A DNA stretch of 64,000 nt from the NCBI RefSeq assembly GCF_020217465.1, contig NZ_CP084115.1, positions 310,001 to 374,000 of the forward strand, given 5' to 3'. Source of the stretch: Cobetia amphilecti. Lineage in GTDB: Bacteria; Pseudomonadota; Gammaproteobacteria; Pseudomonadales; Halomonadaceae. The notes under the pieces are model-generated. The model had not been told where the DNA came from, did not search any database, and saw only the letters and a program-made list of their open reading frames with translations. Position 1 is the first letter of the stretch. The number at the start of each line of letters is the position of its first letter. Shown in pieces: positions 32,377-42,307 of the stretch. Made by a program: the position numbers and the translations under genes.

Positions 32377-33213
32377 TCAGGGCCTGATCAGCAGGCCGGC
32401 GGCGAGCCACTGCACCAGCAGGTTGACCGCGATACCCGGGGCTTGCTCTGCCCCCACCTGCGGCGTCAGCAGCTTCCCTAGCCGGCCGAAGCTCAGGCCC
32501 TCGGCACCGGCCGCGAGGATGGCGCCGAGAGCCAGGTCTTCCAGCGGTTCGAGAGAGCGATAGTGCACCTCGGGCGCGCCAGCGGTGGGCTGGCGCCAGA
32601 CGATCCAGGGCGTGGGCGCGTCCGACTCGACCGGCGCGCGTGGTGGCTCATCGTTGTCGATGGCCTTCCAGATGGCCGGCGTATCGAAGTGGAACAAGAA
32701 GCGCTTGAGGGACGGGTGCGCTGCCAGGGCCAGCTCGGGCCACTCCTCGGGGGCCAGCGTCTGCAGGGGCTCGACACTCAGCGGGGTGCTGTCCACCACA
32801 TCCAGCGCCAGCCCCAAAGCCCACTCGAAGGCGGCCATCTCGGTGACCAGGGAGCGCTCGGGTTCGCGCGCCGCGACGAAGGCCGGGAAATGCTGGCCTG
32901 CCCAGCGAATCGAATAATGACTCGGCGGGTGGGCCGCGAGGTAGTCACGACACAGCAGCCCGAAGGCGTCATCGCCGATCAGGGTGTGCACGGCCTCGAA
33001 ATCCCCGCCGAAGACCTCGAAGAGCCGCAGCCGATAGGCCATCGCGTAGATGTCGAGGCGCTCCTCGGCGCTGGCAAGCTGATCACTGATGACGGCCTCG
33101 GCCGCCGCGCTGCGGGTGTCAGGGCTCGGTGTCGCGAGGTAGGCGCCCGTGGTCTCCTGCAGTTGCATCAAGGCGCTGCGATCAGCACCGCCTGCAGGGC
33201 TCGCTTGCGTCAT
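32377..33213 (-). CDS. bufC: BufC/HvfC-type (DUF2063) partner protein
   Basis: 278 residues. The N-terminal DUF2063 domain is recognisable: RLDIYAMAYRLRLFEVFGGDFEAVHTLIGDDAF, here LDIYAMAYRLRLFEVFGG, and CRDYLAAHPPSHYSIRWAG. In bufferin/Hvf systems this protein works with the DUF692 enzyme to bind and modify the small precursor peptide. Its ATG overlaps the bufB stop (ATGA), so the two are coupled. The C-terminal half is variable and acidic. Confidence 0.85.
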   Translation of the reverse strand: MTQASPAGGADRSALMQLQETTGAYLATPSPDTRSAAAEAVISDQLASAEERLDIYAMAYRLRLFEVFGGDFEAVHTLIGDDAFGLLCRDYLAAHPPSHYSIRWAGQHFPAFVAAREPERSLVTEMAAFEWALGLALDVVDSTPLSVEPLQTLAPEEWPELALAAHPSLKRFLFHFDTPAIWKAIDNDEPPRAPVESDAPTPWIVWRQPTAGAPEVHYRSLEPLEDLALGAILAAGAEGLSFGRLGKLLTPQVGAEQAPGIAVNLLVQWLAAGLLIRP

Positions 33214-34199
33214 GCGCGCAGCCCTCCGTGGTCTGGCGTCTGGTTCTCGCGCGCAGCATCCGCCAGCGGACGACCACTGCGGCGGCGCAGCTCGGCGTAC
33301 TCCTGCATCAACTCCGACCAGGGCGGGAAGTTGTCGTCACGCTCGATCATGGTGGCGACATCGCCGAAGCGCTCCCGCGCGGCGTCATACAGCGTCCACA
33401 CGGTGTCCGGGACGGGCTGGTCATGGGTGTCGATGCATAGCTCGCCGCCGGAGACCTCCTGCCGGATATGCCCGGCCAGATGGTGCTGCCAGACGCGCTC
33501 TGCCGGCATGGCGTCCAGATAGGTCAGCGGGTCGAAGCCATGGTTGTGGCTCGAGACGATGACGTTGTTCAGGTCGAGCAGGATCAGGCAGTCGGCGCGG
33601 CGGCTGACCTCGGCCAGAAACTCCCATTCGCTCATCTCGTCAGGGCGCCAGGTCAGATAGCTGGAGACATTTTCCAGCAATAATTGACGGCCGAGCGCGT
33701 TCTGGACCTGATCGATGCGTTCGGCCAGATGGTCGATGGTGGCATCGGTATAAGGCAGCGGCAGCAGGTCGTGGAACTGATGCGCGCCGGTACGCGTCCA
33801 GCACAGGTGGTCGGAGACCCACAGCGGTTCGATGCGCTCGCACAGGGCGCGCAGCTCGCGCAGGTAACGGCTGTCGATGGGGTGGCTGCCACCGATGGAC
33901 AGTGAGACGCCATGCAAGGCGATGGGGTAGTGCTCGCGGACTCGCTCGAGATGATGAAGTGGCTTGCCGCCGGCACTCAGACCACCGGTACTCAGGCCAC
34001 CAGTACTCAGGCCACCAGTACTCAGGCCACCGTATTCTCTGGCGCCGTGGCCCATGTAGTTCTCGCTGATGGCCTCGAACCAGTCGATGTCCGGCAGCGT
34101 CGTCAGAATCTCGTGATAGTACTCGGGGCGCAGGCCCAGCCCTTGGCCGATGCCGGCGCTGGCGGGCGTGGGCAGGCGAGCGGTGACAGCTGTCGTCAT
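33210..34199 (-). CDS. bufB: DUF692 multinuclear-iron enzyme (BufB/HvfB)
   Basis: 329 residues forming a TIM-barrel of the DUF692/MbnB family. Metal-binding segments are visible: ISENYMGHG, ALHGVSLSIG, WVSDHLCW, LLENVSSYLTW, LDLNNVIVSSHNHGFDP and QHHLAGH. Relatives use two or three iron atoms with MbnC-type partners to turn cysteines into oxazolone-thioamide or related groups; HvfB and BufB act on BufA/HvfA peptides. An unusual insertion of four GGLST pentapeptides interrupts residues 57-76, right after NYMGHGAREY, encoded by 15-bp DNA repeats. The gene lies between bufA and bufC. Confidence 0.9.
   Translation of the reverse strand: MTTAVTARLPTPASAGIGQGLGLRPEYYHEILTTLPDIDWFEAISENYMGHGAREYGGLSTGGLSTGGLSTGGLSAGGKPLHHLERVREHYPIALHGVSLSIGGSHPIDSRYLRELRALCERIEPLWVSDHLCWTRTGAHQFHDLLPLPYTDATIDHLAERIDQVQNALGRQLLLENVSSYLTWRPDEMSEWEFLAEVSRRADCLILLDLNNVIVSSHNHGFDPLTYLDAMPAERVWQHHLAGHIRQEVSGGELCIDTHDQPVPDTVWTLYDAARERFGDVATMIERDDNFPPWSELMQEYAELRRRSGRPLADAARENQTPDHGGLRA
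33972..34031 (-). repeat. Four 15-bp tandem repeats inside bufB
   Basis: Consensus on the plus strand RGTACTCAGGCCACC, with units at 33972, 33987, 34002 and 34017; the last two are identical. Each encodes GGLST or a close variant in frame, so changes in copy number would not shift the frame. Confidence 0.9.
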
Positions 34200-34332
34200 G
34201 CGTGAGTCCTCTTCTGAGCGAAGGCAGAGGGTGCGGAAAAGGGCGAGGCAGAGGGCGAGTCAGGAGAGCTGAAAGACACCCGCCAGGCTTCCCGGACAGA
34301 AACCGAGCCAGAGCCAGAACCAGAATCAGGAA

Positions 34333-34358
34333 CGGGAGGACGGTGTGCCGTCCTCCCG
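34333..34358 (-). other. Hairpin between bufA and bufB
   Basis: A perfect 11-bp stem (CGGGAGGACGG / CCGTCCTCCCG) with a 4-base loop, followed on the minus strand by TTCCTGATTC and 6-bp repeats (TGGTTC, TGGCTC). It may act as a partial terminator or 3' stabiliser, giving more bufA than bufBC transcript. Confidence 0.6.
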
Positions 34359-34412
34359 TCGGTAATTCGCCAGAGGCGCCTGCCAGGGCAGACGCCTCTG
34401 CGTGCCTGAGGA

Positions 34413-34679
34413 TCAGCCCTCGACGACAGTACCACCTTCGCCGACACAGGATTCAGCGCTGGCAGTGTACGACCAGCCCTGGCCCTTGCAGGCGTTGTGG
34501 CCCTTGCAGGCGCTGTTGGCGGTCGCGCATTCGGAGGTGCCCTTGCAGGAGTTGATGCCGGAGCACTTCACGGCATTGTCACCGGCGTGCACCGGCAGCG
34601 AGGTCAGGGCGGCAGTGGAGAACAGCGCGGCGGCAGCGGCGGCGAAGGTGGCAGCAGTAACGGTCTTCTTCATGGTCAT
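34413..34679 (-). CDS. bufA: Bufferin-type precursor peptide (BufA/HvfA, DUF2282-like)
   Basis: 88 residues. A signal peptide (KKTVTAATFAAAAAALFSTA) probably cleaves after Val-His-Ala at 32. The mature part has six cysteines at 39, 45, 51, 58, 64 and 78, in the repeated pattern KCSGINSCKG...SACKGHNACKGQGW that is typical of bufferins. Known members are exported peptides, modified on cysteines by BufB/BufC, that bind copper. It is the first gene of bufA-bufB-bufC; no DoxX-type fourth gene follows. AGGAAG precedes the ATG. Confidence 0.87.
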   Translation of the reverse strand: MTMKKTVTAATFAAAAAALFSTAALTSLPVHAGDNAVKCSGINSCKGTSECATANSACKGHNACKGQGWSYTASAESCVGEGGTVVEG

Positions 34680-34948: not shown

Positions 34949-37447
34949 ATGCCGGACCTACTTCGACGCCTGTGGCGCATACCGCGCTGGCGCTGGAGCA
35001 TCGTGCTCGTTCTACTGTTGGGGGGCTGCAGTGCCGTCGCGATTCATCAGCTCGATGAGCGTTTCGGCCCCGCGTCACCGCGTGAGCGGGTGGTGTCACA
35101 CGACAGTCTTGCCGGGCGCCAGTGGGAGGATGAGGTCAAGCCGGTGATCGAGACGCGCTGCGTGGTCTGTCATGGCTGCTACGACGCTCCCTGTCAGCTC
35201 AAGATGTCATCGGCCGCCGGGATCGATCGCGGCATGAATCCGGCGCCGGTCTACGATGGCACGCGCTTGCTGGCGGCCAATCTGACGCGCATGTTCGAGG
35301 ACGCGGACACCACCGAACAGTGGCGCAGCATGGACTTCTCGCCGGTGCTCAATGAGCGCTTCGACTCTCCGGCCGCCAATCTGGAGGGCAGTGTGCTGTT
35401 CCGTGCGCTCAGCCAGAAGCGCAAGGCGCCGCTGCCGGTGACGGAAGATGGCCTGCTGCCGGAAGACCGCTTCGACCTGTCGCTCAATCGCAGTCAGGTG
35501 TGTGCCCCCGTCGAGGGCTACGACAAGTTCGCCGAAGACCATCCTGACTGGGGCATGCCCTACGCCCTGCCACAGGTCAGCGATGAAGAGCACCGCACGC
35601 TGGTGAACTGGCTGGCCAAGGGTGGCGCGATGACCGGTCCGGCACCACTGCCCCAGGCGCTGATGCCGCACATCGAGCAGGCCGAGCGCTTCTTCAACGG
35701 CGACAGCCTCAAGCAGCGCCTGATGAATCGCTATATCTACGAGCATCTCTTCCTGAGCCATGTGTATTTCCCGGACATCAAGGGCGCGGATGGACGGCCG
35801 ATCTTCTTCAAGCTGGTGCGTTCCAGCACCCCGCCGGGCGAGCCGATCAAGCGCATCTCCACGCGCCGCCCCTACGATGCACCCTATGCCTCCTACACCG
35901 CCGATGAGCGCGCGAGCCTGCCCCACGATGACGCCGGACGCCCGCGGGTCTATTACCGTCTGTGGCAGGAGCGCGCGACGATCCTGGCCAAGAATCATCT
36001 GCCCTATGCGCTCGATGATGCTCGCTTCAAGCGCTGGCAGGCGCTGTTCCTGACACCGGATTACCCGGTGGATGACCTGCCGGATTACGACCTCAAGACG
36101 GCCTCGAATCCTTTCCTGACCTTCGAGGCCATCCCGGCCGAGTCACGCTATCGCTTCATGCTGGATGAGTCGCAGAACACCATCATGGGCTTCATCAAGG
36201 GGCCGGTCTGTCGCGGTCAGGTCGCGGTGGATGTGATCAATGATCACTTCTGGGTCGGCTTCACCGATCCGAAGATGTTCAGCCACCCGGAAGTGGAACG
36301 CACCCTGGCCGAGGAAGGGAAGAATCTCAGCCTGCCCGCCGAGCAGAGCAGCAATGCGTTGCCGATCAGCTCCTGGGTCAAGTTCGAGCGCAAGCAGACC
36401 GCCTACCTCAAGGCCAAGCAGCGCCTGATGTCCCAGGCCTATCTCGATGGCGATCTGCGCCTGGATGAGCGAGTGCTGTGGGACGGCAGCGGCTGGACCG
36501 ACGGCCCCGGCCAGGGGCGCAATCCCAACGCGGCCCTGACCATCTATCGCCACTTCGACAATGCGGCGGTGATGAAGGGGTTGGTCGGTGGCGTGCCCAA
36601 GACGGGCTGGATCATCGATTACCCGATGCTGGAGCGCATCCACTATCTGCTGGTCGCCGGCTTCGATGTCTATGGCAATCTCGGCCATCAGCTGGTCACC
36701 CGTCTGTACATGGACTTCCTGCGCATGGAAGGCGAGAACAACCTGCTGGTGCTGTTGCCGGCGGGCGAGCGCCAGGCGGTGCATGACAGCTGGTATCGCG
36801 ACGTCAGCCCCGGGCTTGTCGAGCTGCTGTTCAAGAAGCCGCCGCAGTTCGATGCACCCAGTGGCATCGTCTGGACACCGCAGGAGCTGTCATCCCCGAA
36901 CCAGGCTCGCCTTGGTCTGATGCGGCGCATGCAGGAGCGCCTCGCGCCGGAACTCGGCCATGAGCGCAGCCTGAGCAATGTCGAGGACGAGCACGTGCGA
37001 CATGAGCTGCAGGCCCTCGCTGCGGTGCAGGGAGTCTCGGCCAGCCTGATGCCGGAGGTGACGATCGTTGCGCTGGAGGATGGCACTGATGACTCGCCGC
37101 GCCTTTACAGCGTGCTGCGCAATTCCGCCCACGCCAACATCACCAGCCTGTTCGATGAGGAGGTAAATCGCCGTCCTGAGCAAGACACTCTCGATGTCTT
37201 GCGTGGCGTGGCGGGCGATTACCCGAATGCCTTCTGGCGTCTGACGGCTGACACCCTGACGGGGCTGGCAGAGCGGGTGGCGGCACTCGAGACCGAAGAG
37301 GACTATCGCGCCCTGCAGGCCGATATCGGGGTGCGCCGGACTGATCCGCGCTTCTGGGAGTTTTCCGACAGCGTGCTGCGCACCAACTATGCTGATCGCC
37401 CTGTCGAAGCGGGCCTGCTGGACTATAACCGCCTCGAGAACCGCTGA
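34949..37447 (+). CDS. cti: Fatty acid cis/trans isomerase
   Basis: 832 residues. The N-terminus carries a lipobox LGGC with Cys27, so this copy looks like a lipoprotein facing the periplasm. The heme c motif CVVCH (Cys71, Cys74, His75) follows at once and leads into GCYDAPCQLKMSS, which is typical of Cti. The rest is the large Cti catalytic part. Cti changes cis unsaturated fatty acids of membrane phospholipids into trans ones without new synthesis, a fast reply to solvents, heat or salt. The start ATG 34949 has TGGAG upstream; the frame to 34712 is too long and unlike the family. Confidence 0.93.
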   Translation: MPDLLRRLWRIPRWRWSIVLVLLLGGCSAVAIHQLDERFGPASPRERVVSHDSLAGRQWEDEVKPVIETRCVVCHGCYDAPCQLKMSSAAGIDRGMNPAPVYDGTRLLAANLTRMFEDADTTEQWRSMDFSPVLNERFDSPAANLEGSVLFRALSQKRKAPLPVTEDGLLPEDRFDLSLNRSQVCAPVEGYDKFAEDHPDWGMPYALPQVSDEEHRTLVNWLAKGGAMTGPAPLPQALMPHIEQAERFFNGDSLKQRLMNRYIYEHLFLSHVYFPDIKGADGRPIFFKLVRSSTPPGEPIKRISTRRPYDAPYASYTADERASLPHDDAGRPRVYYRLWQERATILAKNHLPYALDDARFKRWQALFLTPDYPVDDLPDYDLKTASNPFLTFEAIPAESRYRFMLDESQNTIMGFIKGPVCRGQVAVDVINDHFWVGFTDPKMFSHPEVERTLAEEGKNLSLPAEQSSNALPISSWVKFERKQTAYLKAKQRLMSQAYLDGDLRLDERVLWDGSGWTDGPGQGRNPNAALTIYRHFDNAAVMKGLVGGVPKTGWIIDYPMLERIHYLLVAGFDVYGNLGHQLVTRLYMDFLRMEGENNLLVLLPAGERQAVHDSWYRDVSPGLVELLFKKPPQFDAPSGIVWTPQELSSPNQARLGLMRRMQERLAPELGHERSLSNVEDEHVRHELQALAAVQGVSASLMPEVTIVALEDGTDDSPRLYSVLRNSAHANITSLFDEEVNRRPEQDTLDVLRGVAGDYPNAFWRLTADTLTGLAERVAALETEEDYRALQADIGVRRTDPRFWEFSDSVLRTNYADRPVEAGLLDYNRLENR

Positions 37448-37672: not shown

Positions 37673-38422
37673 TCAGCGACCGCCCTGACACTCGCCTTCG
37701 GCCAGTTCGATCAGGCCATCCAGATGCAGGATATGCACCTCGCGGGCACGAATGTCGACCAGCCCCTGGGTCTGGAAGCGGGTCAGGATACGGCTGATGG
37801 TTTCGACGGCAAGCCCCAGATAGTTGCCGATATCGGCGCGTGCCATCGACAGGCGGAAGCTGTACGGCGAATAGCCACGACGACGGAAGCGCTGTGACAG
37901 GTTGACCAGGAAGCTCGCCAGTCGCTCATCGGCTGTCTTGCGCGACAGCAGCATCATCATGCGGCGATCTTCGTGCAACTCCTTGCTCAGGCTCTTGAAC
38001 AGCTGGGTTCTCAGTTCCGGCATCTGCTCCGAGAGCGCATTGAGGCGGTCGAAGGGAATCTCGCAGACGGTGGTGGTCTCCAGCGCCACCGCAGTGCCGG
38101 GATAGCAATTGCTGTCGATGGCATCCAGCCCGGCCAGCTCGCTGGGCAGGTAGAAGCCGGTCAGCTGCTCCATGCCGCTGTTTTCATTGGTGATCTGCTT
38201 GAGACTTCCGGAGCGCACCGTGAAGACGCAATCGAAGGCATCGCCCTGGGTGAAGAGTACTTCCCCTTTTCTGAGTGGCGCGCGACGGCGGATGATGGCG
38301 TCAAACTGGTCGATATCTTCCATGTTCAGTGCCAGTGGCAGGCACAGTGAACTCAGCGAACAGGTCTGGCAGCGGGCTTCATGGGCGCGCAAGCGGTGTG
38401 ATGCCTGTGCATTGGCCGTCAT
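37673..38422 (-). CDS. fnr: FNR/ANR-type oxygen-sensing transcription regulator
   Basis: 249 residues, almost the length of E. coli FNR. The four [4Fe-4S] cysteines are at 18, 21, 27 and 120 (RCQTCSLSSLC and TTVCEIPF). The cAMP-receptor-like domain and the C-terminal recognition helix GNYLGLAVETISRIL, with the E..SR residues that read TTGAT half-sites, are intact. It should switch genes when oxygen is low. The start ATG 38422 has AGGAGAG upstream. The cbb3-like cluster lies 290 bp upstream on the same strand; that gap is AT-rich near 38600-38630 and holds the fnr promoter. Confidence 0.94.
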   Translation of the reverse strand: MTANAQASHRLRAHEARCQTCSLSSLCLPLALNMEDIDQFDAIIRRRAPLRKGEVLFTQGDAFDCVFTVRSGSLKQITNENSGMEQLTGFYLPSELAGLDAIDSNCYPGTAVALETTTVCEIPFDRLNALSEQMPELRTQLFKSLSKELHEDRRMMMLLSRKTADERLASFLVNLSQRFRRRGYSPYSFRLSMARADIGNYLGLAVETISRILTRFQTQGLVDIRAREVHILHLDGLIELAEGECQGGR

Positions 38423-38710
38423 GGTGACTCTCCTGAGGAATGTCACCGCTACCCCTGGGGCAGGGCAGCGGGAGGGGTCTTTCGGGCGCAACAACGGTGG
38501 GGCGGGGCCTTGTCGCCCGCCGCTACCCTGCCTAGCCGAATTGAATCGAGCGGCCAGAGTCTGAGCGCTTATCGGCTAATGCAGTGCAATTTCGTGGCGC
38601 CATAATATTAGATTTTATTAATTCATTATCCTGCCCAACCCATGGGCGTTGCAAGGTGTGTGAACTTTAGGCCGGGTTGGCCCCGCATGACCATACCGCG
38701 ACGACCTGCC

Positions 38711-38989
38711 TCAGCCAGCTGCGCCGAGCAGCAGGATCAGTGCGGCGGCCAGCGTCGCCAGTGCCAGTATGCCCCAGGCACGTGGTGCTGGTGTGCCAGG
38801 CTGACGTACGCCGTTGATGCGATGTTCCTGCATGGGGCCATCGCCTTCGCGCTCGTCGCTGTCAGCGCTTGCAGCGCGCGAAAGGCTGCCCAGCGCCAGC
38901 ATGGCGAACAGCACCAGGCTGCCCAGCGTGAGGGCCAGCACCCAGAGATTCCAGAACAGGGGGAGTCCAGTTGTCTCCAGCAGATTCAT
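38711..38989 (-). CDS. CcoP-like two-helix membrane stub without cytochrome domains
   Basis: 92 residues. LPLFWNLWVLALTLGSLVLF resembles the first helix of cbb3 subunit CcoP (FWxxYxxxLxLGT), then HRINGVRQPGTPAPRAWGIL resembles its HxxDGIxExxNPLPRWW turn, followed by a second helix ending LILLLGAAG. The protein stops where the two cytochrome c domains should begin, and no heme motif is present. It is probably an assembly or anchor subunit of the complex encoded by the two genes upstream. GGAGA lies before the start; the gap to the ccoO-like gene is 25 bp. Confidence 0.65.
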   Translation of the reverse strand: MNLLETTGLPLFWNLWVLALTLGSLVLFAMLALGSLSRAASADSDEREGDGPMQEHRINGVRQPGTPAPRAWGILALATLAAALILLLGAAG

Positions 38990-39014
38990 GTCGTGTCTCC
39001 TGAGCGGTGTCCTG

Positions 39015-39632
39015 TCATGGGCCACGGCTGGCGATGTCGCTCGCGGGGGCGGCCTGCTGCAGGTAGGCGAGCAGCGCCGTGATTTCGGCAGTGCCACGCA
39101 CGTCATTGGGGGCGGCGAGAATCTCGTCTTCCGCGTAGGGCACGCCCAGGCCTTGCAGGGCTCGCATGCGTGCCGCGATGCCTTCACCGCTCAATGCCCG
39201 CTCGAACAGCCACGGGTAGGCGGGCATCGCTGAGCCCGGCACCTGACTGCGCGGGTCATGCAGATGCAGGCGCTGCCAGGCATCGTCATGCTGCGCAGGC
39301 AGCTTGCTCAAATCCGTCCCCCAGCGCTCGACGCCCCACAGCGAAGGGCGGTCGTAATAGCGCTCTCGGGCGGTCGTCGCATCACCGTGGCGCGCCGTGT
39401 CGCCCGGTAGATCGCGCACCATGCGTGTGTGGCACTGCTGACAGCCCTCGCGTTGGTAGATGCGCTGGCCCTCCAGCGCCAGGGCGCTCAGCGGTTTGAG
39501 GTCTTCGGGTGCGCTGGCGAGGCTGGGGTGAGCCCCGAGCGGCACCAGCTGGGCGAGGGCGCCGAGGCTCATGGTGAGCAGGCATAGTGCCGTCATCAGG
39601 CCGGCGTGACGTTCGAGCAGGACATGTCTCAT
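39015..39632 (-). CDS. CcoO-like monoheme cytochrome c of a cbb3-type complex
   Basis: 205 residues. An N-terminal helix (ERHAGLMTALCLLTMSLGALAQLVPL, here in part GLMTALCLLTMSLG) is followed by EGQRIYQREGCQQCHTRMVR with heme c site Cys64, Cys67 and His68, then DPRSQVPGSAMPAYPW with the likely axial Met136. These match cbb3 subunit II CcoO closely, so heme attachment is expected. The protein faces the periplasm. Its ATG overlaps the stop of the CcoN-like gene (ATGA). Confidence 0.85.
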   Translation of the reverse strand: MRHVLLERHAGLMTALCLLTMSLGALAQLVPLGAHPSLASAPEDLKPLSALALEGQRIYQREGCQQCHTRMVRDLPGDTARHGDATTARERYYDRPSLWGVERWGTDLSKLPAQHDDAWQRLHLHDPRSQVPGSAMPAYPWLFERALSGEGIAARMRALQGLGVPYAEDEILAAPNDVRGTAEITALLAYLQQAAPASDIASRGP

Positions 39633-41197
39633 GCGTAGTGCCCTCCCGAGGATGTGGCAGGGGGCGTGGTAGAGGGGGACGCAGAGTGCATGGCAGGTTC
39701 TGATGATGCCTTGTGCGAGCCGGAGCTCAGGCGCTGACGCTCATGAGCGGCTTGGCGTTCGCTCTTTTGATCAGCCAGGGTGCGCGTCACATTGAGGAGC
39801 ATCAGCAGCAAGCCGAGCGCCCAGCAGGCGAGCCCGCCCAGCGAGATCATCATCGGCATGCGGGCCGCTTCCAGCACCTCGCTCAAGGTGTATAGCGGCC
39901 TGCCGTCATTTGCCAGCACATGCCACATGCTGCCTTGAAGCAGCGTGGTCGCCCAGCTGGCGGCAACGCACAGCAGGGTGCCGATGATGACCAGCAGGGC
40001 GTGAGTCTTGAGCAGCGCGAGGGAGCGCATCGGGGGCAGCAGGTGATAGGCCATCACGATGGCGACTGTCGCGACCACTCCCAGGCTTGCTGCCGGCGAC
40101 AGACTGTTGGCGGCACTGAAGGTCAGGGCATTGAGGGTCGGCAGTGACAGCAGGCTGTATTCAAGAACCGCCAGGGCATAACTGACCAGAGCTGCCGCCA
40201 GCAGGCAGATCAGCGGATCCCGGCGCAATGAGTGCCAATCCTCCTTGAGTGTCATCAGGCCATTGAGGCTGAGTGCCAGCCCCGGCGCCAGCAGCAGGAG
40301 GCCCATCGCCATGCCCAGCGTCTGGCTCCAGGCCGGCAGGGCGCTCGCGAACAGCAGCGGAGCACCTCCCCATGTCGCCAGCAGCACCAGCATCCAGAAG
40401 CTGGTGGCGGCCAGCCGATGCGAGTAGAGCGGCAGCCGTGAGCGGCTCGTCACCATGTGATGGAGCAGGGCAATGACGCCGAATGCGAACATGCCGCCGG
40501 GGAGTGGCCCTGCCTGCCAGCGCTGAATCAGTGCCTCGAGGCTGCCCGTGAAGAGCGGTATCGATTCCAGCAGGCCGATCGGCACGCTGAGCGAGATCAA
40601 CACATGCTGTATCAACACCAGCATCAGGCCGGCGATGAAGTACCAGCAGGCCACCGGCAGGCGGCGCAGCGTGCGCTGTTCCAGCACTGTGAAGAAGACC
40701 CACGCCACGGCCAGCCAGACGAGGGTCATCAGGAGATCGACGAGCCAGGGCGCTTCGGCCATGTATTGGCCCGAGGAGTAGCCTGCGACAATCGCCAGTG
40801 CGCCGAGCGCGACCACGGCCTGCCAGCCGAGGAAGGTGAAATGCATCAACTTGAGCGTGAAGGGGGGCAGTGCGATATCCGCTATCGCCGTCTCGGCGTC
40901 CGTGCGTGATTCGCGTTGCAGGACACTGTGCATGGCGATGGAGTAGCCGCCGGCGATCACTGCCGAGCCGCCCAGACCGTAGAGCAGCAGGTGGTGCTGC
41001 AAGGGAGCGAGGCGGCCGTAGCTCAGCCAGGCCACTTCCGGCCCCAGTGATGGCCATAGCCAGATGAGGTTGAGCCACACCGCCAGACAGAGGCTGAGCA
41101 GGCCCCAGATGACGGCCATGCGAGAAAAATCATGGCTTGCGTGATGATGATGGTTCACGCGGGGATGACAGGCCGAAGCCTCAAGAGCTGTACGCAT
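39629..41197 (-). CDS. CcoN-like cbb3 subunit I homologue lacking all heme and copper ligands
   Basis: 522 residues with about twelve helices that match CcoN along the full length: YGRLAPLQHHLLLYGLGG, FLGWQAVVALGALAIVAGY, WQAGPLPGG, FWMLVLLATWGGAPLLF, SALPAWSQTLGM, SLNGLMTL and LNALTF. By alignment from memory with characterised CcoN, the low-spin heme ligand of RPLHTN becomes Gln67 (His68 and His69 are next to it), the CuB ligand of WYGHN becomes Gly/Pro near 230, the HH pair becomes Pro280-Leu281, the cross-linked Tyr becomes Ala, and the GHVH pair is gone: there is no His between 323 and 384. The N-terminus has a His-rich patch (HPRVNHHHHASH). It is the first gene of the cluster. Confidence 0.8.
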   Translation of the reverse strand: MRTALEASACHPRVNHHHHASHDFSRMAVIWGLLSLCLAVWLNLIWLWPSLGPEVAWLSYGRLAPLQHHLLLYGLGGSAVIAGGYSIAMHSVLQRESRTDAETAIADIALPPFTLKLMHFTFLGWQAVVALGALAIVAGYSSGQYMAEAPWLVDLLMTLVWLAVAWVFFTVLEQRTLRRLPVACWYFIAGLMLVLIQHVLISLSVPIGLLESIPLFTGSLEALIQRWQAGPLPGGMFAFGVIALLHHMVTSRSRLPLYSHRLAATSFWMLVLLATWGGAPLLFASALPAWSQTLGMAMGLLLLAPGLALSLNGLMTLKEDWHSLRRDPLICLLAAALVSYALAVLEYSLLSLPTLNALTFSAANSLSPAASLGVVATVAIVMAYHLLPPMRSLALLKTHALLVIIGTLLCVAASWATTLLQGSMWHVLANDGRPLYTLSEVLEAARMPMMISLGGLACWALGLLLMLLNVTRTLADQKSERQAAHERQRLSSGSHKASSEPAMHSASPSTTPPATSSGGHYA

Positions 41198-41440
41198 ATC
41201 ACGACCTCGTCGGCAGTGGGCGAAAGCGCAGTGCTGGTGGTGACGGTGCTGGAAGCGGCGCTGCGGAAGCGGTCATGTCATCGACGCCCCTGTCAGGGCG
41301 GCAGGGCTGGCGCTGACCGATATCACGCGCGACCATGACCGACTGACAGGCCATCCCTCGCGCTGGAATGCAGCGTTTACCCCTCATCGGTTCCAGCGTT
41401 GTCTGGCGCGAGCCGTACGAGATCAACAGGAGAATTTCGC

Positions 41441-42307
41441 TTGCCCGCCGTCACTTCATCATCGGACGAAGATGCCAATGCGTCCAATACGGCTGAGGTC
41501 CCCAGCCCTTACGCCGAGGAAGGCTTTCGTGTCGCCAGCCTGGCCGATGTCGCCTCGGAGCTTGCTGCTCGCCAGACCATGTCCCACGACGCGCTGGCCG
41601 CGCGAGGGCCGTGGCGAGGCTGGTTGGCGGAACTGGGGCCGCTTGAAATCCATGGACGACCGGGGCGTGCCCTGCTATTGCATGCGCATGGTGCCGGCGC
41701 CGGGCGTGAGACCGACTTCCATCAACAGTTCGGCGCTGCCTGCCTGATGCAGGACATGGCGTGGCTGGCATTCGATTTCGGCTATCTCGTCAGGATGCGC
41801 TGCGAAAGCCGCCGCCGACCGCCGCCCCGGCTGCCCGGGCTGATCGAGGAGATGGCGCGCTGGTGTCAGGCGCTGATGGTGTGTGTGGCGGCCGTCGACT
41901 CCTTGCGATCGCTGCCCTGGCTGGTCGGCGGCAAGTCGATGGGCAGTCGTGTGGCCTCCCATCTGCTGGTGGAGTTGACCCGGGCGGCGCATGCGCCGTT
42001 GCCGGTCGGGTGGTACGCGCTGGGCTATCCGTTTCATCCCACGGGCAAGCCCGACAAGTTGCGTATCGACCATCTGCCGGATATCCCGATGGCCGGCTTG
42101 ATCTGTCAGGGCAGCCGCGATCCCTTCGGAACTCGCGAGGAAGTGACGGAATATCCGTTGCCGGAAAGCCTTACATTGCTTTGGCTGAATGATGGCGAAC
42201 ATGATTTCAAGCCACGAAAAGCGAGTGGCGAGACGCGTGAAGGACTGATTTCGCGTGCGGCGCAGGCCTTGGCCAATCACCCGGCGCTGGGCGGAAAACG
42301 GCAGTGA
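41441..42307 (+). CDS. Alpha/beta-hydrolase of the KANL3/Tex30-like family
   Basis: 288 residues. The fold is shown by RALLLHAHGAGAGRETDF, the nucleophile elbow GGKSMGSR (Ser), LICQGSRDPFG (Asp) and NDGEHDFKP (His). This family (COG3571) has few characterised members; it may be an esterase or thioesterase. The first 60 residues are an acidic lead. I use the TTG at 41441 because AGGAGA lies 7 bases upstream; the only upstream start in frame (ATG-like at 41399) has no ribosome site. It is divergent from the CcoN-like gene and followed by the tRNA array. Confidence 0.8.
   Translation: MPAVTSSSDEDANASNTAEVPSPYAEEGFRVASLADVASELAARQTMSHDALAARGPWRGWLAELGPLEIHGRPGRALLLHAHGAGAGRETDFHQQFGAACLMQDMAWLAFDFGYLVRMRCESRRRPPPRLPGLIEEMARWCQALMVCVAAVDSLRSLPWLVGGKSMGSRVASHLLVELTRAAHAPLPVGWYALGYPFHPTGKPDKLRIDHLPDIPMAGLICQGSRDPFGTREEVTEYPLPESLTLLWLNDGEHDFKPRKASGETREGLISRAAQALANHPALGGKRQ

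Follow-up and report, generated by a model that had tools for sequence, protein, structure and literature searches.

The closest described system is the cbb3-type oxidase CcoNOQP (3mk7 from Pseudomonas stutzeri and 8smr from P. aeruginosa), and the subunit I of heme-copper oxidases, to which CcoN belongs, is normally recognized through its ligand histidines. Here, we describe a three-gene operon from a 64 kb stretch of the Cobetia amphilecti genome (the window), in which the CcoN-like protein has lost all of these ligands. The operon resembles that of a cbb3 oxidase in that CcoN and CcoO are homologous end to end, the gene order is N-O-P and the genomic place is the same as in relatives. It differs in lacking the heme b, heme b3 and CuB ligands, the cross-linked tyrosine and the heme domains of CcoP, while CcoG, CcoH, CcoS and the FNR box were not found in Cobetia. 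To judge from its title, a CcoNOH sub-complex (PDB entry 9g6b) likewise pairs CcoN with CcoO in the absence of CcoP cytochromes, but its CcoN shows the ligand motifs in the alignment. Membrane-anchored cytochromes such as cy and c552, named in one report (PMC7876108), resemble the role that we propose below, that of a tethered heme c between the bc1 complex and an oxidase, although in Cobetia an oxidase shell of 12 helices would serve as the anchor. No report of a ligand-less heme-copper oxidase subunit I was found among titles and the opening lines of abstracts, few subscription journals being covered. Pseudoenzymes retain their fold and remain under selection after the loss of their catalytic residues, and the Cobetia CcoN is alike in this. 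Judged by its sequence, the Cobetia operon is a member of the cbb3 family by descent but does not encode a cbb3 oxidase, since several defining features of the oxidase were tested and are absent.

The ccoN-like gene (positions 39629–41197, minus strand) encodes a protein of 522 amino acids with the 12-transmembrane-helix fold of cbb3 subunit I. This fold is supported by the alignment of residues 20–479 with P. stutzeri CcoN (3mk7_A; E = 1.3e-80), which bears out the view of an earlier note on this DNA that the protein is a CcoN homologue from end to end. Compared with genuine CcoN, His60 is replaced by Gln67, His207 by Gly230, Tyr251 by Ala, His257 by Pro, His258 by Leu281 and His349 by Pro368, and His347 falls in a gap (the columns carry what we take to be the P. 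stutzeri residue numbering). The H-V-H motif of helix X has thus become a two-residue gap and a proline. In all six Cobetia genomes the ligand columns of the low-spin heme b (His60 and His349) contain Gln and Pro, that of heme b3 (His347) is a gap, those of CuB (His207, His257 and His258) contain Gly, Pro or Ala, and Leu, respectively, and the cross-link column (Tyr251) contains Ala, Val, Thr or Leu. All seven catalytic columns are therefore lost in 6/6 Cobetia sequences, which range down to 53% identity, compared with 59 of 59 distinct loci in which they are intact; the comparison set comprised 63 near-full-length CcoN rows, four loci having been fetched twice. The same loss in every genome of the genus indicates that it is not a matter of chance, and the claim in the earlier note that the six ligand histidines and the cross-linked tyrosine are gone agrees with both the alignment and the six genomes. 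A frameshifted or mis-called locus was ruled out by the other genomes, in which the frames are uninterrupted and align over their full length. A shift in the alignment masking the ligands was ruled out as well, since helices VI, VII and X regain no histidine in their ligand columns. As far as can be read from sequence, the heme b, heme b3 and CuB sites are lost, and because their ligands are gone the Cobetia CcoN should not reduce oxygen.

The loss of polar residues extends beyond the ligands. Of 239 columns that are invariant in genuine CcoN, 67 are kept in Cobetia, 55 have switched to another invariant state and 117 vary (the genuine rows number 63 for CcoN and 64 for CcoO, with four loci in twice). 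Invariant columns are kept for Trp (11/18), Gly (16/32), Pro (6/11) and Glu (2/4), but less so for His (2/12), Tyr (1/15), Lys (0/4), Asp (0/3) and Arg (3/12), and on these counts the packing frame of CcoN is better kept than its polar residues, the ligands among them. In CcoO, 33 of 70 invariant columns are kept, including those of the CxxCH motif and the methionine, and nine have switched to a new invariant residue, all within 70–80 and 109–116. Across the three deep Cobetia lineages, the CcoN helix with the greatest likeness is helix 8 (0.82, compared with a mean of 0.59). Foldseek, given a low-confidence model of the protein, ranked chains of CcoN first (3mk7_D; E = 2.7e-16, TMt 0.69).

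The ccoO-like gene (39015–39632, minus strand) encodes 205 amino acids predicted to form a membrane helix and a mono-heme c domain (CQQCH and Met136). Its ATG overlaps the ccoN stop codon (ATGA), as the earlier note had it, and the retention of the heme motif and axial methionine that it described holds throughout the genus, with Cys64, Cys67, His68 and Met136 invariant. This heme c is the sole cofactor site recognized in the operon. Only 25 bases separate the gene from mini-ccoP (38711–38989, minus strand; 92 amino acids), which leaves too little room for a ccoQ gene. The listed open reading frame of mini-ccoP begins further out with GTG, and we place its start at the ATG at 38989. The product represents the N-terminal membrane part of CcoP, with two hydrophobic stretches; by itself it matches FixP_N weakly (E = 0.17), and with its five relatives it aligns with the CcoP N-terminus. 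The cytochrome domain is absent and the length is 89–92 residues in 6/6 genus genomes, as expected from the earlier statement that the protein stops short of these domains, and no CxxCH motif occurs in any frame of the downstream gap (38495–38710). The three open reading frames were confirmed where the earlier note had placed them. We note that the COX1 (PF00115; 82.7 bits) and FixO (163 bits) models score above their cut-offs at an operon that is unable to form an ordinary cbb3 oxidase, which is a warning for annotation; the NCBIfam ccoN equivalog model does not reach its cut-off (237 compared with 583 bits).

In other members of the Halomonadaceae the place of the Cobetia operon is taken by ccoNO(Q)P-GHI(S)-hemN-fnr. 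Eight relatives were read around ccoN, with gene names assigned by reading except for ccoN, ccoO, ccoP, fnr and the hydrolase. The N-O-P order was the same in each, the divergent hydrolase lay beside ccoN in five of the eight and also in a further locus (L094, genome G133), and fnr lay beyond the operon in all five relatives read far enough. The L094 stretch, which is the longest, runs PrkA, threonine aldolase, FadH-like, hydrolase and then ccoN-O-P-G-(H)-I-hemN-fnr. In the window, an alpha/beta hydrolase (41399–42307, plus strand; the divergent neighbour used as a synteny marker), a FadH-like gene, a pyridoxal phosphate enzyme, an aldolase and PrkA lie on one side, and fnr/anr (37673–38494, minus strand), an ancestral neighbour, lies on the other. 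In relatives the stretch leading to fnr holds the CcoP tail, ccoG, ccoH, ccoI and hemN; in the window none of these lies between mini-ccoP and fnr. The ccoG, FixH and FixS profiles found CcoG, CcoH and CcoS in none of the six genus genomes, CcoI not having been searched for genome-wide.

These comparisons bear on the suggestion in the earlier note that the protein is a CcoN paralogue. The FixO profile finds one gene in the window genome, and each of the six genus genomes has three COX1 genes; the other two in the window genome belong, by reading, to a caa3-type and a bo3-type operon, and those of the remaining five genomes were judged by their like scores. No second cbb3-type CcoN was found in the genus. 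A paralogue standing beside a working cbb3 oxidase was thus ruled out by the single FixO and the types of the remaining COX1 genes. In our view the Cobetia operon is instead the cbb3 operon of the Halomonadaceae itself, which sequence and synteny indicate was de-catalysed in place in the Cobetia ancestor. An assembly role for another cbb3 oxidase, which had also been suggested, is unlikely because no such oxidase was found.

The ligand-less form appears confined to Cobetia, a marine genus, in the genomes surveyed. Of 275 genomes in the family search 202 gave matches, with the six genus genomes at 54–100% identity and the non-Cobetia rows among the matches listed at 33–36%. In a draw of 390 genomes from the order, of which 302 matched and in which the window genome was the sole Cobetia, a profile built from the six Cobetia sequences gave the window genome 892 bits and no other genome more than 382. 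The ligand columns in this draw were read in 30 fetched loci, the window's own being left out as a duplicate, and in 30 loci from 27 low-scoring genomes. Among the latter, 17 span the full set of seven columns without a break and two do so in several pieces, all intact, eight cover one to five columns, also intact, and two cover none; one (L122, genome G312) has Lys in the His60 column and is a true relic, a 5' ccoN fragment running into a 207-residue frame. A contig scan gave four loci, namely C. crustatorum, two genuine CcoN sequences with 7/7 columns and one locus (L059) whose six covered columns are intact. No ligand-less CcoN was found outside Cobetia in this partial survey of the order. 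In quick trees, of which we rely on nothing beyond the clade and the position of CcoO, the Cobetia CcoN and CcoO sequences each form one clade, and the CcoO clade lies among Halomonadaceae CcoO, although the fork joining it to G154 has a support of 90, below the starred level. The CcoN tree, for which L059 was too short, joins Cobetia to another family of the order through a stem of 6.98, a placement that we do not trust; the tree program also warned of long branches meeting within the Cobetia clade and of differences in letter composition. The earlier note had proposed looking for a clade of ligand-less proteins followed by CcoO-like and short CcoP-like genes, and this is what is found in 6/6 genomes.

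One further locus in the survey (L119, genome G360) is a 466-residue open stretch that is heme-copper-oxidase-like and 31% identical to CcoN, with the seven ligand columns intact. It is perhaps of a divergent oxidase or nitric oxide reductase type.

The ratio of nonsynonymous to synonymous substitution (dN/dS) was obtained by Nei-Gojobori counts, in which dS is near saturation for deep pairs; C. crustatorum (G016) was omitted from the CcoO, Cti and hydrolase comparisons owing to broken frames. The ratios are 0.15–0.41 for the CcoN-like protein (15 pairs), 0.11–0.21 for the CcoO-like protein (ten pairs) and 0.09–0.49 for mini-CcoP, compared with 0.02–0.06 for fnr, 0.07–0.15 for cti and 0.16–0.27 for the hydrolase among the neighbours, and with 0.04–0.09 for genuine CcoN (seven of ten pairs countable, dS being high). 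Bootstrap upper bounds do not exceed 0.51 (five CcoN and four CcoO pairs). In simulations in which half of the sites were randomly substituted, the frame stayed open in 0/500 cases for ccoN, 0/500 for ccoO and 26/500 for mini-ccoP. The open frames and the ratios below 1 make a dead pseudogene unlikely, although the operon evolves faster than genuine ccoN, and the maintained operon with intact frames described in the earlier note is upheld by a dN/dS check of the kind it had proposed.

An FNR-box-like site, scored against what we take to be the consensus, lies at −83 to −89 upstream of genuine ccoN in seven of eight relatives (T45 being the region without it), with scores of 8–9 of 10. No such box was found in any of the six Cobetia upstream regions (41198–41440 in the window), where the scores are at most 7 of 10 and between 65 and 199 of every 200 shuffles do as well. 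By score alone, three of the seven sites in relatives are not rare, being equalled in 15/200 (T42), 57/200 (T43) and 20/200 (T48) shuffles. The shared position of the sites is stronger evidence than their score, and the Cobetia operon has probably been uncoupled from low-oxygen control.

We consider it probable that the operon is an emptied oxidase which has acquired a new selected job away from oxygen, as a cytochrome docking platform (or sensor), and which was kept through the radiation of the genus. More specifically, and tentatively, we propose that the de-catalysed cbb3 shell persists in the membrane as a scaffold for the heme c of CcoO, with docking and the passing of electrons. The sequences themselves show that CcoN lost its heme b, heme b3 and CuB sites and CcoP its cytochrome domains, that the FNR box went along with CcoG, CcoH and CcoS, and that purifying selection kept the membrane part of CcoP together with the heme c protein CcoO and the emptied CcoN. 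The scaffold, without hemes b or copper, would position the heme c of CcoO on the periplasmic side and may still present surfaces on which bc1 and cytochrome c could dock. CcoO, which has the heme c motif and predicted membrane anchors of a candidate membrane-anchored carrier, could then take electrons from bc1 to a candidate acceptor such as the caa3-type oxidase. Complex formation, docking and the acceptor are what we infer here. In the structure of the R. capsulatus bc1-cbb3 supercomplex, the CcoP membrane helix and transmembrane helices 8 and 9 of CcoN delimit the bc1 interface, and eight of nine cross-links between cytochrome c2 and the oxidase are on CcoO (PMC7876108). We propose a membrane cytochrome platform because the parts retained in Cobetia are among these contact parts and because cytochrome c1 of the bc1 complex is present in 6/6 genus genomes.

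Several points weigh against this proposal. Helix 9 is only average in its likeness across the Cobetia lineages (0.59) and keeps two of 17 invariant columns, and by this latter measure helix 4 (4/7) is slightly above helix 8 (9/17). The fold model of CcoN, built from four sequences, is weak, with a predicted local distance difference test score (pLDDT) of 57.6 and a predicted template modelling score (pTM) of 0.56. The Cobetia CcoN exceeds genuine CcoN several-fold in dN/dS, so that constraint is partly relaxed. Lastly, the R. capsulatus report argues that the heme to which cytochrome c2 passes its electrons is cp2 of CcoP, which Cobetia lacks, and the supercomplex studied was an engineered fusion (PMC7876108).

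If the operon had no selected function, it could be a slowly decaying relic in which open frames reflect a lag after the loss of the oxidase. The raised dN/dS of CcoN would fit such decay, as would the long stem branches (6.98 changes per column for CcoN and 2.62 for CcoO) and the ccoO frame, which is interrupted in the draft C. crustatorum JO1 contig (L038/L056). On that contig, however, cti and the hydrolase gene are interrupted as well, which makes draft errors the probable cause, and ccoN-like and mini-ccoP are intact. With dS at about 1 or above between the three main Cobetia lineages, the ccoN and mini-ccoP frames are nevertheless open in 6/6 genomes and ccoO in 5/6; dN/dS is well below 1, and the true ccoN relic in G312 is a mere 5' fragment. 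We regard a relic as quite unlikely. A redox or oxygen sensor, in which the heme c of CcoO would register the redox state of the cytochrome c pool and relay it to a regulator by way of the emptied CcoN, is unlikely in our estimation. Genuine cbb3 oxidases do signal to regulators in Rhodobacter, and a new partner could have caused the switched invariant columns (55/239 in CcoN and 9/70 in CcoO). The operon has neither a sensor or kinase gene nor room for ccoQ in the 25 bases before mini-ccoP, and the FNR box is gone. The FNR/ANR gene noted earlier is indeed adjacent, but it lends no support to a sensing link, since fnr lies beyond the operon in 5/5 relatives and its position is the ancestral order.

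The gene for the heme c-containing cis/trans fatty acid isomerase (cti; 34949–37447, plus strand) adjoins the locus in synteny in 6/6 genus genomes and is otherwise rare in the family, occurring in eight of 275 Halomonadaceae genomes, six from Cobetia and two from one other genus. CcoO might thus serve Cti as an electron partner, keeping its heme c reduced or resetting it, and the heme c of Pa-Cti was isolated reduced with a midpoint potential of +245 to +403 mV (PMC11727003). The abstract of the same paper has Cti acting on liposome phospholipids with no protein needed, and in each of the two non-Cobetia genomes that carry Cti the CcoN match scores like genuine ones. The neighbour reported earlier is real, a partnership need not follow, and Cti, a candidate partner at most, is quite unlikely to explain the retention of the operon. 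A new site in CcoN, binding another metal or heme through His69, His260 and His426 or forming a channel, is also quite unlikely. These three histidines are invariant in the six ligand-less proteins, compared with Asn, Tyr and Arg in five genuine rows; His69 is two residues past the His60 column, and both it and His426 would cap a helix and share one side, although the helices are those of the weak model and the topology is inferred. No histidine has been regained in the lost ligand columns, and the fold model is too weak for distances between histidines to be read from it.

A lineage that dropped the ligands by which subunit I is recognized yet kept the protein is a natural experiment that separates scaffold from catalysis. 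It would reveal which cbb3 surfaces are of value without oxygen reduction, and it makes supercomplex building, cytochrome docking and signalling testable in one environmental genus.

Elsewhere in the window, a cluster on the minus strand (32377–34679) comprises a Cys-rich, precursor-like peptide of 88 amino acids (34413–34679), an enzyme of the MbnB/TglH/ChrH family (PF05114; 33210–34199) and a DUF2063 protein (32377–33213). We take it to be a cluster for a ribosomally synthesized and post-translationally modified peptide, presumably resembling the bufferin-type copper peptides.

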